DNA of 25,650 nucleotides from a virus. The notes beneath the pieces were generated by a model, which worked only from the letters and a program-made list of their open reading frames with translations, was not told where the DNA came from and searched no databases. The stretch spans positions 1 to 25,650 of IMG/VR virus record IMGVR_UViG_3300003322_001190; one strand, written 5' to 3'. Position numbers and translations under genes: made by a program. Positions 11,527 through 21,465 of this stretch are shown one piece after another (the first letter of the stretch is position 1; every line of letters starts with the position of its first letter).

Positions 11527-12111
11527 TCACATGCCGATCGCGGCGCGGAGCAGGGAACGGAAGTCTCCCTGGGTCAGGCGTCCCGCCGTGTTGATGACCT
11601 CCAGCGTCCAGGAGAGGCCCTGGCGCTCGGCCTTCGCGATGCCCATGAAGTTGCCGGTGGCCAGCAGGGACGGCTGGATCATGGCGACCTTGTCAGAGCT
11701 GCCGCCGGTGGCGTCGTAGACCGAGACGCGCACGTTCTTGGCCTGGCCGAAGTCCGTGCCCTTCTTGAAGGCCACGAAGGCGAACAGGATCGAGGTGATG
11801 TTGTTCGGGATCCGGGAGAAGTCGACGGTGATCACCTCGTCGTCACCGGCCTTCTTGCCCCGGTGCTCATCTCCCGAGTGCGTGATGGCGCCGGTCTCCG
11901 TCGGGTCCAGGTTGTCCAGACCCGCGTACATGACCGGGTCCTCGCCCTGCATCAGGACGGCGACGAGGTCCAGGTCCGTGCCGATGAAGTTCTTGATGGC
12001 TCCCAGGACACGACCGGAGCCGCCGGTGGACGTGTCCCAGGCCCCGCCGATCTGGAGCTTCTGGACACCGGTGAGGTCGTTGCGGCCGTCGTCCTTGGTG
12101 AGTACGTGCAT
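11527..12111 (-). CDS. TerD-family protein, 194 aa
   Basis: Clear TerD domain: QIGGAWDTSTG (20-30), TDLDLVAVLM (45-54), ITHSGDEHRGKKAGDDEVIT (76-95) followed by VDFSRIP, then VRVSVYDATG (127-136). The Asp/Glu-rich loops correspond to the family's calcium-binding sites. Length is normal (about 190 aa). TerD proteins belong to the tellurite/stress-response Ter system of bacteria and also occur in phages. The usual partners (TerB, TerC, TerZ) are not in this window, so this is a stand-alone copy. ATG at 12111 has AGGAGG upstream (7 nt spacing). It is second in the operon from promoter H, and its leader carries CCGCCAGAGA. Confidence 0.92.
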   Translation of the reverse strand: MHVLTKDDGRNDLTGVQKLQIGGAWDTSTGGSGRVLGAIKNFIGTDLDLVAVLMQGEDPVMYAGLDNLDPTETGAITHSGDEHRGKKAGDDEVITVDFSRIPNNITSILFAFVAFKKGTDFGQAKNVRVSVYDATGGSSDKVAMIQPSLLATGNFMGIAKAERQGLSWTLEVINTAGRLTQGDFRSLLRAAIGM

Positions 12112-14852: not shown

Positions 14853-14889
14853 GTGGCCTCCTCGGGTCGGTTCTCTCTGGCAGGACAAG

Positions 14890-14918
14890 AACCTACTACC
14901 AAGGATTCCTGGAGTCAA
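14890..14918 (-). promoter_or_regulatory. Spacer-dyad promoter J
   Basis: -35 TTGACT (14913-14918) overlaps the stop of the giant enzyme gene (14915). A 17-bp spacer holds CCAGGAATCCTTGG; -10 TAGGTT (14890-14895). The leader carries TCCTGCCAGAGA. Confidence 0.72.
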
Positions 14919-17900
14919 GCTCCCAGCTTCACCGGCTCCCAGCTACCTCCGATGCAGAGCATGATCTCCTTGACGTCCCAGGTCGCAGGCTCGACCTTGG
15001 GCAGGAACCGCACGTGGCTGTTGTGGTACTTCAGCGTGATGTGCGGAGTCCATCCATGATCATTGCGGACCTTGTACCCGTGCTCCACGAGGAGTTCGTT
15101 CAGGTCGTGCCGGATCGCCCCTCCCCCGGGGATGTCCACGGCGGCCCACAGGACATGGTTGCCCGGGTTGGTGAAGGTACCGGCTCCGCCGACGCTGGCC
15201 TTGAAGGGCTTCTGCGTACGGGCCCACGCACGCACGAGGGAGTCCAGCCCGGCCACCTGGTCCTTGGAGTGCTCCGTCTTGCTCCCGAGGTAGCACAGGG
15301 TCACGTGGAGGGCCTCCAGGGGCTCCCCGTCCTCCACCAGCAGTTTCCGGCCGATGCTCTTGGGCGGCACGATGGCGATCATGATGCCGTCGCCGTCTGT
15401 TCCCGAGGCCTGGGAGAACAGGCCGGACAAGGTCCTCCTCGCCGTCGTGGGGACCCAGGGGCTCGGTCCGGTGGGCGAGGAGTTCTTCCACTCCCGCAGG
15501 CGCTCCCAGGGCCGGTCAGGGTGCTGGTCGAGGTACTTCTCCACGACGTTCGAGAGATCGAAGAGCCCCTTGCCGTTACCAGTGAAGGCGTCCGAGCGGT
15601 GGGTGTGCAGCTCCTCCCAGAGGTTGGCCGCCATGCGCTGGCGCTCCTCCTCCGGCAGCCTGCCGATCGCCTCGATCTCGTGGAGCAGGGTCTCGGCATA
15701 GTCCCAGTAGGACTCCGGCAGGTGGGTGGCGCTCCAGTCCTTCGGGACCTCCAGGGGGTGCACGGCCCAGGTGTCGTCGGTGACGTCGTAAGCCGCGTAC
15801 GGCTTGAGGTTCCTGATGTCCCAGGCCCGGGGGTTCACGAAGAACGTCCGGTCGAAGGGGCCCACCTTGCGGCCGTCGGCCAGCTCGAAAAAGTAATTGT
15901 CGACATTCGCCTTGGACCACAGGGCGTCCGTCATCTGCTGGGCGATCTCGGCATCGTCCAGCTCCTCGTGATCCGGATTCTGGTCGCGGAACTCGGTCCA
16001 GTCGATGCCGATCAGGACGTCGAAGTCCCCGTTGAAGGGCTGCCACTTGGCCGCCTCGGACCCGGCGAAGTACACCTTGGCCCAGGTCTCCCAGCCGTCG
16101 TACAGGTGCCCCAGGACGCGCCCTACGCGGTCCAGGATGTCCTGGCGGACCTCCGGGCGCAGGTGGTCGCCCTCGAAGATGCGCTGGTCGTTCTGGGCAC
16201 TGTTGGGGCCCCAGTACCGGCCCTCGGGGAGCCAGGTGTGGGTGTGGGTGTAGACCGGGTGGTCCCCGATCGTGGTGTTGTCCTCGTGGCCGTGCGAGCC
16301 GTCGTCGTGAGCCCAGCCGTCCATGGTGGTCATCTGGACCCGGTGGCCCTCGTTGTCGGTCCCCATGGTTCCCGGCGGCGTGTAGGCGGCCGTCGTGGAC
16401 GAGGAAGACCCCGAGTCTCCCCCGGCGTCTCCCGAGTCGTCAGAGCCGCCCTGAAGGGCTTCCGGGACCCCTCCCATCCACCGGTTCTGGGTGTGCTTGC
16501 GCTTCTCCTCGTCGGCCTCCATGGCCCCTTGATGCTGGGCGGGTGCCTGGAAGTGCTCGTCGAACGTTCTCAGGGCGTTGTGGTGACCGTAGTGGCCCAG
16601 CAGCCCCCGGAACGTGTCAACGAAGTCCTGACCATGGCCGCCCGAGGTGAGCAGGTGGGCCATCTCGTGCAGTACAGCGTGGTTGTGGAAGTGGTTCGAA
16701 CCCAGGTGGAGGCGAAGCTGCTCGTCCGGCTCCCCCAGCTCGTCCTCTCGCACGACGTAGCTGTGGTTCGGACGCAAGGTCGGCCTGACGGCCAGGTCGG
16801 CCGCCTGCGGATGCCCGTGGTCGTGCAGGATCTGCCGGGCGTGGTCCCCGGCCTCCTCCAGATCTCCGTAGCGCTGGAGATCGTGACCGCCCTCCGTCAT
16901 GGCCTTCTGAGCCGCGTAGACGTTCGTGGTCCACGCATCCCTCGCCGCTGTCGAGCGCACCCCCTCCGGGTCGGAGAGATCCGGCCTGGTCAGACAGACG
17001 AACTGAGGGCTCTTCCGGGTGAACAGCCGCATCTGCCGGTGCGGGACCTCGGTCTCGGCCCGGTGGCGGACCTCCGGCCAGGACTCGGCGAAGCCGGGGT
17101 GCAGCTCGCCGGACTCGTGCATCTCGTCGATCTGGGGCGCGGTGAACCACCGGTGCCCGGCCGCCTCGTGGGAGTGCGAGCCGTCCTCGGAGGGTGTGAA
17201 CTTCTCCGGGGTGTCGGCGATCACCGTGTGGTACGACCAGCCCCCGTGGTCGTTGGAGTGCGTGCCGATGTGGCCGAGCGGCGGCAGACCTCCCAGCTCC
17301 TCGTCACCCTCTCGGGTACCAGCCTCGAAAGGGGTCTCACCCCTCTCGATCGCTCCGCCGGGGATGGACCAGGTACCCGGGTGGTCGACGTGCCGCGAGC
17401 GCTGCTGGAGCAGGTAGTGGTGGGTCCCCTCCAGGTCCGTGTGGCGCACCAGGAGTCCAGCCGCTCCGCGCGCTCCCCAGTGGTCGTGTCCCTGGGCGCA
17501 GGTGACCTCGTCGGGGTCCTTCGCGGCGTGCACCCGGATGGGGTTGTCGAAGGTGTGGGTGACAGGCCCGCGTGCCGAGTGCCAGGTGATCCCCCGCACG
17601 TTCATGGGGGCGTTGCGCTTGAGGGGCACCTCCCGTTCGGGGTCCATGTCCCAGTCCCGTACGGCCCGGTCCTCCAGCACGTACGAGTTGTCCTCGATGT
17701 GGTGACGCTCGGGAGTGTCGGCGTGCAGGACCACGGCTGTCTGCCCGGGGCTGAGCCGGTCGCCGTTGAGGTGGTGGTAGCCGGGATCGTCGGTCCAGTG
17801 CACGCCGACGTTGCCCTTGGTCAGGGTGTGCTGGAGGACGGCTCGGGCCCGCTCATCCACCGGGAGCTTCTCGTTGTGCGCCGGGTGGCTGCTGGGAAGG

Positions 17901-19180
17901 TCCAGGGCGAGGTGGCGGTACACCCGGGACTGGAGCTTGGGGTGCCACTGGTCCCACATACGCTTGTGGAAACCGTCGTCCTCCTCGTACTGGCTCTCCC
18001 CGACCTGCCGGGGCAGGCCAAAGCTCACTCCCGCCGTACGGGGCTCCAGGGGCTTGGCGGAGAAGCCGATCTCGCTCGGCTTGATCTCCGAGGGGATGTG
18101 CTCGCCGGTGGCCTCCGCCGGATGCCGGGCGGGCGCCGGAGCACCCTTCCCCGCGAGGCCGAACATGTTCCGGCTCACCCGCACGGGGACGTGATCCATC
18201 CCGAGGACCCTGGCCGCCCGCAGCCGGTGGTTGCCCTCACCGAGGTAGGCCTCCCCCGTCTTGGGGTGGTACTGGAGCATCAGGGGCTCCATGTAGCCCT
18301 TCTCGGCGAAGTGGGTCGCCACCTCCCGCGCGTGGTCCCCGTCGGTCTCCTGAGTGGCGTACGGAGCCAGCTCGTGTGTGGGCACCATCTCCACGTTCGG
18401 ATGACCGGCGGTGTGCACCCGCACCCGGATGCCGTGCTGGTTCAGAAACCGGGAGGGGATGTCCCCTCCGTCGTACCTCGCTTCCAGGTCGGCCTGCTTG
18501 CGCACGGGGCTGGAGAAGTCGTACCGGTTGAAGGGCGTTCCGGTGTGGAACTTCATGCCCTCCTCGGAATACTTCTGCCCCGAGGACCAGTGGTCATTGC
18601 CCTCTCTCCACGAGACCCCCGTGACCTTCATCGGGGCCCCGGGACGGACCGGCAGGCGCCAGGAGATCTCGGGGTCGTACTTCTCCCCGGGCCGCATGTT
18701 CTCGTGCCAGTGGTGCTTGTCCGGCGGGGTCTCGGCGTGCATGACGATGTGGGTCGTCGGGCATCCGCCGTGACCAGACTCCTCGTCGCCGCAGTTGTGT
18801 TTGCGCTCGTGGTCGTTGTACGTCCCCCAGCCGGTCTGGTTGGCGTACTCGGCGGCCTTGTGGGGGCTCGGGCTCCAGTAGTTGCCGAGGCCGCCGGTGG
18901 AGCCCTCCTCGCCCTCCGGGCCCTGGTTCTGGGCGTTCTGCTTGCGGACCTCGCTCAGCAGCAGGTGTGCCTTGGCCGCCGGGGGCTGGTTGGGGTCGTG
19001 GACGAACTTGTGGACCTCCGGCCGCAGGACCACGGACAGGCCACGGTGGACCCCCTGGTCCCGGGTGTAGCCGCTCTCGTCCGGCCGTCCCATGGGCTGC
19101 GCGTGGTACTGGCTCTCCTCGGCGGGCGCCGCCGTCTTGTGGGCCGCCGTGGTGAACAGCTCGGTCAGGGTCTGGGACAT
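14915..19180 (-). CDS. Giant multi-enzyme protein, 1421 aa (ART x2, ParB-like, Nudix, HExxH, NTase, 2H)
   Basis: Modules in order. (1) ADP-ribosyltransferase-like, about 40-195: HRGL with R46, GNYWSPSPHKAAEYA, then DPEISWRLP with E171. (2) ParB-like, about 245-337: YLGEGNHRLRAARVLGMDHV. (3) Second ART-like copy, about 410-535: NVGVHWTDDPG and DPEREVPLKRNAPM. (4) Nudix, about 570-715: box 609-631 with GAIERGE, then REGDEELGG. (5) Zinc peptidase-like: HEMAH at 838-842 with H849. (6) Ser/Gly/Asp linker 911-930. (7) Nucleotidyltransferase-like, 1036-1060: FAGSEA, then GDFDVLIGID. (8) 2H phosphoesterase-like C terminus: HVT at 1292-1294 and HIT at 1380-1382. ATG at 19180 has GGAGG 6 nt upstream. 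It directly follows the terminase gene. It may be a virion-carried or self-processed enzyme set acting on NAD, ADP-ribose or RNA ends. Domain calls are by motif; the combined role is inferred. Confidence 0.88.
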   Translation of the reverse strand: MSQTLTELFTTAAHKTAAPAEESQYHAQPMGRPDESGYTRDQGVHRGLSVVLRPEVHKFVHDPNQPPAAKAHLLLSEVRKQNAQNQGPEGEEGSTGGLGNYWSPSPHKAAEYANQTGWGTYNDHERKHNCGDEESGHGGCPTTHIVMHAETPPDKHHWHENMRPGEKYDPEISWRLPVRPGAPMKVTGVSWREGNDHWSSGQKYSEEGMKFHTGTPFNRYDFSSPVRKQADLEARYDGGDIPSRFLNQHGIRVRVHTAGHPNVEMVPTHELAPYATQETDGDHAREVATHFAEKGYMEPLMLQYHPKTGEAYLGEGNHRLRAARVLGMDHVPVRVSRNMFGLAGKGAPAPARHPAEATGEHIPSEIKPSEIGFSAKPLEPRTAGVSFGLPRQVGESQYEEDDGFHKRMWDQWHPKLQSRVYRHLALDLPSSHPAHNEKLPVDERARAVLQHTLTKGNVGVHWTDDPGYHHLNGDRLSPGQTAVVLHADTPERHHIEDNSYVLEDRAVRDWDMDPEREVPLKRNAPMNVRGITWHSARGPVTHTFDNPIRVHAAKDPDEVTCAQGHDHWGARGAAGLLVRHTDLEGTHHYLLQQRSRHVDHPGTWSIPGGAIERGETPFEAGTREGDEELGGLPPLGHIGTHSNDHGGWSYHTVIADTPEKFTPSEDGSHSHEAAGHRWFTAPQIDEMHESGELHPGFAESWPEVRHRAETEVPHRQMRLFTRKSPQFVCLTRPDLSDPEGVRSTAARDAWTTNVYAAQKAMTEGGHDLQRYGDLEEAGDHARQILHDHGHPQAADLAVRPTLRPNHSYVVREDELGEPDEQLRLHLGSNHFHNHAVLHEMAHLLTSGGHGQDFVDTFRGLLGHYGHHNALRTFDEHFQAPAQHQGAMEADEEKRKHTQNRWMGGVPEALQGGSDDSGDAGGDSGSSSSTTAAYTPPGTMGTDNEGHRVQMTTMDGWAHDDGSHGHEDNTTIGDHPVYTHTHTWLPEGRYWGPNSAQNDQRIFEGDHLRPEVRQDILDRVGRVLGHLYDGWETWAKVYFAGSEAAKWQPFNGDFDVLIGIDWTEFRDQNPDHEELDDAEIAQQMTDALWSKANVDNYFFELADGRKVGPFDRTFFVNPRAWDIRNLKPYAAYDVTDDTWAVHPLEVPKDWSATHLPESYWDYAETLLHEIEAIGRLPEEERQRMAANLWEELHTHRSDAFTGNGKGLFDLSNVVEKYLDQHPDRPWERLREWKNSSPTGPSPWVPTTARRTLSGLFSQASGTDGDGIMIAIVPPKSIGRKLLVEDGEPLEALHVTLCYLGSKTEHSKDQVAGLDSLVRAWARTQKPFKASVGGAGTFTNPGNHVLWAAVDIPGGGAIRHDLNELLVEHGYKVRNDHGWTPHITLKYHNSHVRFLPKVEPATWDVKEIMLCIGGSWEPVKLGA

Positions 19181-19395
19181 GGCCACCTCCACCCCTTCGG
19201 GCTTGTACTGCACCCAGAGACAGCAGAAGGCCCCCGAGTGAACGGGGGCCTTCCAGCACAGTGAAGCGAGATCCCGCCAGAGATCCGACTCAGGAGGCCG
19301 CTCGCCGAGGAGCAGACCAATCACTGCGTACGTGGCCGGGTGAAACGGCCGATATCGAAAGCATGCCATGATCGCAAGCTCTTCGGCAAGGTCGC
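19181..19395 (-). other. 215-base gap between the terminase and the giant enzyme gene
   Basis: No stop codon separates a GTG at 19399 (GTGA overlap with the terminase stop) from the giant enzyme, so a 73-residue in-frame extension (SDLAEELAIMACFRYRPFHP ...) is possible, giving 1494 aa. The extension would be translated through a strong hairpin, and the ATG at 19180 has the better ribosome site. The gap also contains an inverted copy of the TCCCGCCAGAGA motif (19272-19283). No spacer-dyad promoter and no tRNA were seen. Confidence 0.5.
19226..19253 (-). terminator. Strong hairpin upstream of the giant enzyme gene
   Basis: An 11-bp perfect stem (GAAGGCCCCCG / CGGGGGCCTTC) with a 6-nt loop lies 45 nt before the ATG at 19180. 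It may terminate, attenuate or cap the terminase message. Confidence 0.6.
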
Positions 19396-21465
19396 TCACA
19401 TGCGATTACGCCGACCACGGGAACGGGCGCTCTCGTGGAACATGTCCTGCCGGGCTCCCCGGGCCCGGCCGAATCCCCCGAGCTGACGGAAGACGTCCTG
19501 GTCAGTCCTGGGACCACCGGAGAACTCGTCTCCCCGGCTCATGCCCGGGAAGGGGTGGATACCGCTCTGCATGGCGCCCTGGGGCCGCATGGCGCCCAGC
19601 TCGGAACGCAGGGAGATGATCTGGTCCCCGATCAGGGCCATGACGCACTCCATCATCGCGTCGGCGACGTCCTTCGTCTGGACCGGCCCGGAGTCCGGGT
19701 GGTCCACCACGCCGTTCTTCTCCTGGAGGAACCTCAGCTCCAGTTCGGCCTGCTCGTAGTAGGGCGCGTGGACCCAGCCCATGTTCACGGCGGTCTTGAA
19801 GATCTCCGCCCGGGTCCAGTTGTGCTGGCGGGTCGCGGTCTTCTCGTAGACCTGGGTGACCTTGGGCAGACCGGACTGCCGGGACCTCTTGGCCAGACGC
19901 TGGATGACCTGGGCCGAGTTGAACTGGTCGAAGGTCATCTCGGTCGGCATGAACGGCGAGAGGATGTTGCCCCAGATCCACTCCTCCACCTGGTCGTAGT
20001 CGACGATGTGATCCGTGAAGTCCTGCGGCCGGAAGTGGTGGATCCGGTCGAACACCACATGGAGCCGGTTGTCCGGGCCCGGCTCGGCGTGGGCGCAGGC
20101 CAGACCGAAGTTCGCGTTGGACTTCGAGGGGTCTCCGTGAGCCTTGTAATCCAGATCCATCCGGCCCCGGATCTGCATGCCCAGCTCCGGCTGGCCGTAG
20201 AACTCCTGACGGGCGTGCCAGGGATGGAAGATCTCCTTGACCTTCTGCTCGTTGAGGTAGGCGTCCAGAGCCACGGCGAAGTGGCTGCGGCGCTCGACCT
20301 TGAAGGTGTCGGGGTTGGCCTGCTCCTCGCGGGCCATCTGGTCGTCGTACGCCTGAATGGCTCCCCGCAGGGGCTGGAAGTAGAGGGTCGGCTTGCCCTC
20401 GTACTCCCCGAGGTCGCCGGTGTAGCCCTCGGGGAACACCGGGATCGTGTGCGCGATCTCCCAGTCCTTGTAGATGTCCCAGCTCGCGAGCTGGATCATC
20501 AGCATCTCGGGGTAGACCGGCTCCCCGTTCTCGTCCTCCATGATCGAGTTCTGGTAGTTCACGTAGAACTGCCCGAGCATCTGCCAGGGGCTGGACGGCT
20601 CGATGATGAACGCGTCCATGCCGAACTGGTCCAGGGACGGCTTGGCCGCCGCGTAGACCTCCTCGGCCGACCGGTTGGCGCCGGAGGCGACCACGTGGGC
20701 CATCTCGTCCCAGGCCTGGCAGAACGAGGTCGGACCTCGTCCGGCCATCAGCGTGGACTCCTTCGGGACCAGCTCGAAGGTGGCCATGTTGATGTCGTCA
20801 GGGTTCATGCCCTGCTCGGCCCGCTTCCTCATCCGCAGGAAGTCGTTCGGGGCGTAGATCGAGAGCTTCTCCGCCTGGAGGGGCGCACGGATGTACGGGG
20901 CGAAGCAGGCAGAGCCGGTGATGTAGTTCACCGCGTCCTGCCACACCGTGGCCTTGGCCTGGTCCCGCTTTCCGGCGAACACCATGGCCACGAGCTTCTT
21001 GTCCCGGTCCACGCCGTAGTAGCGCTGCGGGTCGCCCTTGGCCATGTAGTTCCACAGCACGTAGGCCATGGACAGGCCGGAGATGTGGCCCTTACCGGCA
21101 CGGCGGCCCATGACCAGGAGGGTCTCCCGGAACCACTTCCGGCCCTCCTTGCGGAGCTTGGCCATCCTGCGCCGGACACCGGGCACGACTCCGTTGTTGC
21201 CGGTCTGCCGGAAGCTCTCCTCCCACTCGTCGATGACCGCGTGGTCGTACTCCGTCAGCAGGTCGAGCCGCAGGAAGATGACCTTCAGCAGTGTGGCCTG
21301 GCGCGGGTACATGTTCGGCCGGTCCAGGTAGTCCGCACTGAGCACGAAGGTGATCGGGTCGGGTACCGGAAGGCCGGTGAAGAGCTGGAAGAGCTTGTCC
21401 GGCCCGAAGGCGGGCGGCAGCGTGGAGACGCGCGGCTTGGACCGGACCACAGTCTGGGCGGCCAT
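19396..21465 (-). CDS. terL: Terminase large subunit, 689 aa
   Basis: The motor that pumps phage DNA into the procapsid. ATPase half: Walker A-like VMGRRAGKGHISG (118-130, K125) and Walker B with acidic pair SFCQAWDEMAH (D253, E254), followed by a coupling motif (AFIIEPSSPW, 285-294). Nuclease half: RGRMDLDYKAHGDPSKSN (D437, D439 or D445 are candidate metal ligands), MTFDQFNSAQV (D513) and TKDVADAMMECVMAL (D599 or D602). The length is a little above the usual 500-600 aa, with an Arg/Gly-rich tail (GGFGRARGARQDMF). ATG at 21465 has GGAG 8 nt upstream. The upstream neighbours include a small-terminase candidate; a portal gene, usually next, is missing here. Confidence 0.93.
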   Translation of the reverse strand: MAAQTVVRSKPRVSTLPPAFGPDKLFQLFTGLPVPDPITFVLSADYLDRPNMYPRQATLLKVIFLRLDLLTEYDHAVIDEWEESFRQTGNNGVVPGVRRRMAKLRKEGRKWFRETLLVMGRRAGKGHISGLSMAYVLWNYMAKGDPQRYYGVDRDKKLVAMVFAGKRDQAKATVWQDAVNYITGSACFAPYIRAPLQAEKLSIYAPNDFLRMRKRAEQGMNPDDINMATFELVPKESTLMAGRGPTSFCQAWDEMAHVVASGANRSAEEVYAAAKPSLDQFGMDAFIIEPSSPWQMLGQFYVNYQNSIMEDENGEPVYPEMLMIQLASWDIYKDWEIAHTIPVFPEGYTGDLGEYEGKPTLYFQPLRGAIQAYDDQMAREEQANPDTFKVERRSHFAVALDAYLNEQKVKEIFHPWHARQEFYGQPELGMQIRGRMDLDYKAHGDPSKSNANFGLACAHAEPGPDNRLHVVFDRIHHFRPQDFTDHIVDYDQVEEWIWGNILSPFMPTEMTFDQFNSAQVIQRLAKRSRQSGLPKVTQVYEKTATRQHNWTRAEIFKTAVNMGWVHAPYYEQAELELRFLQEKNGVVDHPDSGPVQTKDVADAMMECVMALIGDQIISLRSELGAMRPQGAMQSGIHPFPGMSRGDEFSGGPRTDQDVFRQLGGFGRARGARQDMFHESARSRGRRNRM

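Follow-up and report, generated by a model that had tools for sequence, protein, structure and literature searches.

A predicted polyvalent protein with exchangeable enzyme-like modules behind the terminase of a Streptomyces-associated phage lineage

What kind of protein is encoded by a single long frame that lies directly behind a phage terminase gene and carries the motifs of several unrelated enzymes? The window, i.e. the whole stretch of 25,650 nt that was analysed, is part of a 53,909-bp IMG/VR record. Its multi-domain gene (P0003; 14915..19180, 1421 aa plus stop) starts with an ATG at position 19180 and runs down to 14915 on the minus strand, as do all features given below in window coordinates. 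An alternative in-frame GTG at 19399 would extend the product to 1494 aa, but would overlap the terminase stop. A plus-strand frame of 1416 aa overlaps P0003; the minus frame was taken as coding because of its GC content at codon positions 1, 2 and 3 (0.68, 0.45 and 0.91, in a record of 67 % GC) and because other contigs encode conserved counterparts of the protein. The frame is genuine, and the single uninterrupted 1421-residue frame described in a sequence-only reading of this DNA, which had left the strand unstated, was thereby confirmed. All the motifs cited in that reading were found at the residues given, namely a Nudix box (within aa 602–631), HEMAHLLTSGGH at 838, GSEAAKWQPFNGDFDVLI at 1040, HVT at 1292 and HIT at 1380, GEGNHRLRAARVLGM at 314 and the duplicated ART-like motifs VMHAETP (146)/VLHADTP (484) and DPEISWRLP (169)/DPEREVPL (513). 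This set is not a product of chance, since the Nudix (PF00293, 4.6e-12) and 2H (PF13563, 5.2e-12) matches both exceed the Pfam cut-offs.

Seven modules had been proposed, with structure prediction as the suggested check. Of these, Nudix and 2H are firm and the ParB-like module is supported, whereas the HExxH segment is represented by its motif, with the fold unproven; the structural match was strong for ParB/sulfiredoxin and weak for the ART and nucleotidyltransferase (NTase) modules, and the model of the HExxH segment was of low confidence. The Nudix module (aa 560–715; 17036..17503), whose box reads G-x5-E-x7-RE-x2-EE-x-G, also matched RenU (PDB 6uuf, 3.4e-13). Compared with the consensus GX5EX7REUXEEXGU, the catalytic R and E residues are intact and two U positions are Gly, making this assignment firm at the sequence level. 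A match of this module to the candidate defence family PDC-S07 (PADLOC, 1e-7) was rejected as non-specific, running through the Nudix box only. The ParB/sulfiredoxin-fold module (aa 238–337; 18170..18469), which contains GEGNHRLRAA, matched a ParB-like PHROG (2e-6), and the AlphaFold model of this segment retrieved ParB-CDP, sulfiredoxin and Noc in Foldseek (probability 1.00, E 0.01–0.02), so that the predicted fold is supported as the sequence-only reading had proposed. The Arg of the GxHR motif is found as GEGNHR in P0003, L003, L004 and L023 and as GEGNPR in L082. The HExxH segment (aa 735–900; 16481..16978), a putative zincin-like metallopeptidase, carries HEMAHLLTSGGHGQDF with the pattern HEMAH...H; its best profiles were subthreshold (YgjP-like, 0.075; TIGR04338, 0.15), no relatives were found among phages or PDB sequences, and the viral contigs gave only its own near-identical copy. 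The metallopeptidase assignment is unproven.

The two ART-like modules (ART1, aa 41–197, 18590..19060; ART2, aa 409–535, 17576..17956) are homologous to each other (HMM 3.3e-5 and 1.1e-4; BLASTP 4e-7 for the pair). ART1 was delimited by this homology and by its orthologues in L003, L004 and L022, and ART2 by seven homologues, the core of the AlphaFold2 (AF2) model (pLDDT mostly 85–92) and weak Foldseek matches. In ARTs of the R-S-E kind, the R lies in strand 1, strand 2 contains the S/T and an E-x-E precedes strand 6. The corresponding residues of ART2 are R422, T463 and E517, and R, S/T and E are kept in all seven aligned homologues, one of them a module within a 1262-aa protein encoded among the structural genes of this phage. 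ART1 retains the HRG and W-S/T-P motifs, with Arg175 at the position of the catalytic Glu; S-W-R stands against the E-R-E of ART2 in all four orthologues. Because S-W-R replaces the E-x-E catalytic signature, ART1 is probably inactive as a transferase of the R-S-E kind. Loss of catalytic residues across homologues, which would speak against the earlier interpretation of these modules, was thus seen for the Glu of ART1 in all four orthologues, whereas the residues of ART2 are kept in seven homologues. The H-Y-D active site of Tox-ART-HYD2 and ART-PolyVal is not found in ART2, in which R, S/T and E are conserved instead. The full set of sequence features of R-S-E (Alt/VIP2-like) ARTs is therefore present in ART2 but not in ART1, and the fold match of ART2 is weak: outside the ParB region, the best Foldseek matches of the model were ART-fold toxins at a probability of only 0.35–0.69, and a search of PDB sequences with the ART2 profile gave chance matches only. 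An ART identity of both units is suggested by motifs, homologues and these weaker fold matches. The 1262-aa protein itself (L010:6339-10127, minus strand; also in L085) has several further ART-like units, of which one is homologous to ART2 (2.4e-14) and one resembles the rifampin ART Arr-ms (1.6e-5 in the L085 copy).

The C-terminal part of P0003 consists of a Pol-beta-like NTase module (aa 981–1233; 15482..16240) with the motif GS..NGDFD, followed by a 2H phosphoesterase module (aa 1263–1421; 14918..15394). The latter also matched TIGR02258 (6e-10) and, as the sequence-only reading had noticed, both of its paired motifs, HVT and HIT, are intact; the 2H assignment is firm on sequence grounds. 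The NTase module belongs to a family found at 60 viral loci (L020–L078) with members of about 300 aa, including Streptomyces phages. No Pfam, PHROG or PDB profile matched this family, and the PF18765 and PF01909 profiles found no match in the 53.9-kb record. Across 40 sequences, the GS, N, D and D of GS..NGDxD do not vary and the G of NGDxD is near-invariant; in addition, nearly all of 29 aligned sequences have [DE] before a Thr that is itself invariant. The module shows the Pol-beta superfamily pattern G[GS]...[DE]h[DE]h with a third acidic residue on a later strand. Its AF2 model had a pLDDT of about 85–97 over most of the module, and nucleotidyltransferases headed the Foldseek list at a probability of at most 0.57. 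The NTase assignment is thus a prediction from motifs, homologues and weaker fold matches, and by sequence comparison the module is the most conserved core of P0003. A member of the same family, BRock gp39 (L037), is 31–33 % identical; unlike P0003, it has one domain only, in a gene of about 300 aa located close to the endolysin of a Streptomyces phage.

Over most of the 53,909-bp record, identity to a contig of 155,979 bp (G001) is 98.6–99.9 % and, because the two are near-identical, the exact architecture of P0003 is known from one phage lineage only. A megablast of the DNA against 50,697 phage records gave no match. At protein level, the same terminase immediately precedes multi-domain relatives in at least 10 phage contigs, including pRLB1-9.1, with a different module set in each and lengths of 508 to 2011 aa. 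The closest relatives are 57–76 % identical over the shared modules and have a GNAT in place of Nudix and HExxH. L003 and L004 are arranged as ParB-ART1-ParB-ART2-GNAT-NTase-2H, with the 2H cut by the contig end; L022 combines ART1, three GNATs (8e-23), NTase, 2H and further segments; and L080 consists of ART2-NTase-2H only. L088 has a GNAT, a stretch without domain assignment and an NTase, L089 is GNAT-NTase, and L024–L026 (1562–2011 aa) have ART- and ParB-like segments with a C-terminal NTase, L026 also giving a subthreshold match to ART-PolyVal (0.0019). The Nudix was absent from every relative found.

In pRLB1-9.1 (NZ_CP041653.1; L091, L095 and L096), a circular replicon of 154,158 bp in Streptomyces sp. 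RLB1-9, modules of the P0003 type are split across two adjoining genes. WP_143626642 (GNAT..ParB-NTase) lies directly behind the terminase homologue, and WP_143626643 (P0004) comprises an HExxH-like motif recognized by eye, an ART-PolyVal domain above the Pfam threshold (PF18760, 1.4e-9) and a 2H domain. The replicon also encodes Pol III alpha, and was regarded as a phage-plasmid because of its capsid, baseplate and ParA genes; judged by this gene content it is evidently a complete one. A 1158-aa protein annotated as ParB/RepB/Spo0J is encoded a few genes ahead of its annotated capsid gene. Since pRLB1-9.1 resides in Streptomyces and matches in the genome collection were likewise to Streptomyces, hosts of this genus are indicated for the lineage. 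Sequence comparison thus places the slot in Streptomyces-associated myophages and phage-plasmids, with modules swapped between relatives.

The terminase large subunit gene (689 aa; 19396..21465; phrog_2, 5.3e-7) lies immediately upstream of P0003, as the sequence-only reading had correctly stated. Its closest homologues (about 33–36 % identity) are those of Bixzunavirus-type mycobacteriophages and Rhodococcus phage E3. Each of the nine multi-domain relatives examined (L022, L080, L082, L088, L089 and L023–L026) has a terminase homologue immediately upstream, and the same arrangement occurs in L003 and L004. The 156-kb contig represents a contractile-tailed phage, as it has genes for a portal (phrog_2833, 5e-161), an HK97-type major head protein (2e-103), a tail sheath (1e-63) and a baseplate (7e-49), together with a head maturation protease (5e-23). 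In this contig the portal, capsid and protease genes are about 60–80 kb from the terminase, which is located among replication genes in the replication half of the genome. Between terminase and P0003 there is a terminator-like or 5' leader hairpin (GAAGGCCCCC-GUUCACUC-GGGGGCCUUC; 19226..19253; fold z −2.98), an arrangement shared by L003, L022 and L080 with compensatory stem changes, and a conserved upstream element (TCTCTGGCGGGA; 19272..19283), the core of which (TCTGGCGGGA) recurs at the corresponding intergenic position in L003, L022, L080 and L023. Because the terminase is among replication genes and these elements intervene, its adjacency is weaker evidence for packaging of P0003 into the virion than would appear at first sight.

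The upstream element belongs to a phage-wide 12-nt repeat (TCCCGCCAGAGA on the gene strand), which has 12 sites with at most one mismatch in the 156-kb contig (L009–L016), 11 of which lie between genes (permuted motifs would give 0.17), mostly 9–22 nt before start codons. Examples in the window are at about 14874–14885 and at 19272–19283; upstream of P0003 the element is inverted and is conserved in four relatives. It is similar to the start-associated repeats of mycobacteriophages.

Polyvalent proteins, encoded by phages with portal-terminase packaging and by conjugative elements, were described as combining disparate enzyme domains in one chain; their domains are heavily shuffled, and they are predicted to be injected along with the DNA. 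Those of phages list ART, ParB, metallopeptidase and 2H domains, and their genes are usually found close to late genes (Iyer et al. 2017, PMC5512222). P0003 joins more than two domains of disparate activity (Nudix, 2H, ParB-like, the ART pair and NTase) in a phage with an adjacent terminase and, in the near-identical 156-kb contig, a portal. Domains specific to the class, such as ART-PolyVal and LPDs, were not found in P0003 itself. As P0003 shares features of the class, including the fusion of unrelated enzyme domains (ART, ParB-like, putative zincin and 2H), their shuffling and a portal-terminase phage as carrier, and as a relative in the same slot, WP_143626643, bears the Pfam ART-PolyVal domain, P0003 was filed as a variant of the phage polyvalent proteins, a placement made from sequence. 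It differs from the published class in its ART2, which is of the R-S/T-E rather than the HYD type, in its Nudix, which is outside the main listed domains, and in its fixed slot behind the terminase with swapped cassettes and repeated leader-like borders. A Pol-beta-like NTase has been reported only in polyvalent proteins of conjugative elements (PMC5512222); what is new relative to the published set is an NTase family outside Pfam and PHROGs and a Nudix joined to known domains. Among other systems, T4 Alt and other head-packaged ARTs share the R-S/T-E signature and the proposed early action, but T4 Alt is a dedicated ART protein, whereas the ART of P0003 is one module among many. In MuF, portal and capsid-protease fusions of actinophages (e.g. 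Streptomyces phages Mischief19 and Abt2graduatex2 and Arthrobacter phage Edmundo), 2H is likewise fused to or beside virion proteins; a Pfam search found no MuF or portal domain in P0003, and its structural PHROG matches were only to the 2H and Nudix parts of fusion families. A 1192-aa protein of a Streptomyces goshikiensis plasmid has a Nudix module 38 % identical to that of P0003, with a shared CAQGH.HWG..GAAGLL start, and is otherwise unrelated. In that protein (L092:3965-7543) the Nudix is N-terminal, and the gene lies near a T4SS-type gene on a plasmid of the conjugative type.

The explanation that we consider most likely, with reasonable confidence, is that P0003 is a phage polyvalent protein which is loaded into the virion and released with the DNA, each module acting on a different host process. 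We infer that these modules would disarm or reprogram the host in the first minutes of infection: ART2 would probably ADP-ribosylate a host molecule, the ParB-like module probably bind or cut DNA or a nucleotide, Nudix and 2H probably break down nucleotide signals or act on RNA ends, and the NTase probably attach a nucleotide to RNA or to a host protein. Weighing against this explanation are the distance of the terminase from the portal and capsid genes, the hairpin between the genes, the restricted distribution of the leader on pRLB1-9.1 described below, the weak structural matches of the NTase and ART modules, and an HExxH segment recognized by its motif only.

An unlikely alternative is that P0003 is made after infection as an intracellular, non-injected counter-defence or RNA-repair protein with the other modules as accessories; in the repair version, 2H would open the 2',3'-cyclic ends that host RNases leave behind, after which the NTase would re-add nucleotides. 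RNA end-repair was kept because NTase and 2H form a stable pair, apparently the constant core among relatives: they are adjacent in P0003, L003, L004, L022 and L080 and are in neighbouring genes on pRLB1-9.1. RNA terminal uridylyl/adenylyl transferases are among the structures that Foldseek retrieved for the NTase, but at the low probabilities given above, and in L089 and L024–L026 the protein that bears the NTase has no 2H. A fused RNA ligase was not detected in P0003, and 2H domains of phage polyvalent proteins were reported without ligase association (PMC5512222). The conserved element and hairpin in the gene's own upstream region, and the replication genes in the terminase region, agree with an intracellular role.

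Far less probable is a dedicated pathway in which ART, Nudix and 2H act in series on NAD and ADP-ribose against NAD-based defence. All three are present in P0003, and Nudix and ART are common among virion-packaged enzymes of the NAD network (PMC9503650). Nevertheless, the modules shuffle independently, the Nudix is confined to P0003 among the relatives found and recurs in the unrelated plasmid protein, and ART1 lacks the catalytic Glu. The sequence-only reading had called such a coherent NAD, ADP-ribose and 2'-phosphate pathway conceivable and self-cleavage by the embedded peptidase possible; one linear pathway and general self-cleavage are both disfavoured because the Nudix and HExxH cassette is exchanged for a GNAT in the closest relatives, and the HExxH segment is missing from most relatives. 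Least probable of all is a mainly structural or scaffolding virion protein with largely inactive modules, for which the catalytic Glu position of ART1 and the GEGNPR of L082 could be cited, but 2H, Nudix, ART2 and NTase retain their catalytic residues and the module content varies widely, unlike that of a structural part.

Any processing of the preferred polyvalent protein would be explained better by the motifs that recur at its borders and by the capsid maturation protease than by the embedded peptidase. An N-terminal leader (MSQTLTELFTTAAHKTAA; 19127..19180) follows a pattern that recurs in relatives, and an internal copy (RTLSGLFSQASG; 15404..15439) directly precedes 2H, as it does in L003, L022 and L080. 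A junction motif, KQAD (18488..18499), lies between ART1 and ParB, and others are KTAA at aa 15 and RTAG at aa 381. The leader pattern LTxLF..A, searched as hydrophobic-[ST]-x-hydrophobic-F-x(1-4)-A, had 11 copies in 12 relatives compared with 1.3 in shuffles (maximum 5 in 500 shuffles), and [KR][TQVKR]A[ASG] occurred nine times in 1267 linker residues compared with none in 2760 module residues (Fisher 3e-5; linker shuffle P 5e-4), figures that overstate the case since the two patterns were picked with the sequences in view and the relatives do not count as independent samples. Every leader copy in the relatives was at the N-terminus or directly before a module. A copy, LLTDLFVTAAE, also occurs within this phage's capsid-protease gene, in the stretch that separates two regions recognized by PHROGs. 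On pRLB1-9.1, a search of the other virion genes found no leader, which is confined there to the two polyvalent genes, and head targeting by the leader is therefore not established. In relatives from other genomes [KR]TA[AS] occurred seven times compared with 0.95, but with the looser form the single-domain NTase controls, too, had more matches than shuffles. The idea that [KR][KR]TA[AS] is a protease site used throughout the virion was rejected: there were seven matches in structural genes compared with 0.1 expected, two of them within one lysine-rich tail, for a motif defined post hoc.

In giant phages, maturation proteases process head-packaged proteins at multiple motif sites (PMC10052503). 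The recurrence of the leader and of [KR]xA[AS] at N-termini and module borders hints at targeting or cleavage of individual modules, and these border sequences may be cleavage sites, targeting signals or recombination scars. We put forward only tentatively the stronger proposal that they are head-targeting and cleavage signals on each module of a packaged effector polyprotein, cut in the head by the capsid maturation protease; if true, the slot behind the terminase would be a loading dock for swapped effector modules. The border sequence would also predict where such proteins are targeted or cut.

The series of proteins in this slot, with single modules gained or lost, makes the idea of an injected multi-enzyme protein testable module by module, and pRLB1-9.1, being complete and carried by a Streptomyces isolate, is a possible laboratory system. 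The analysis also brought to light the NTase family. Elsewhere in the window, the gene at 11527–12111 appears by eye to encode a TerD-like protein of the tellurium-resistance family (phrog_5698, unnamed, 2e-33). In the 156-kb contig, two neighbouring minus-strand genes (L009:5190-5975 and L009:5978-7135) were judged by eye: the first seems to encode an ART-like protein whose N-terminus reads MSLLWRTAVRRTAA, and the second a protein in which a ParB-like GHHR motif occurs twice.
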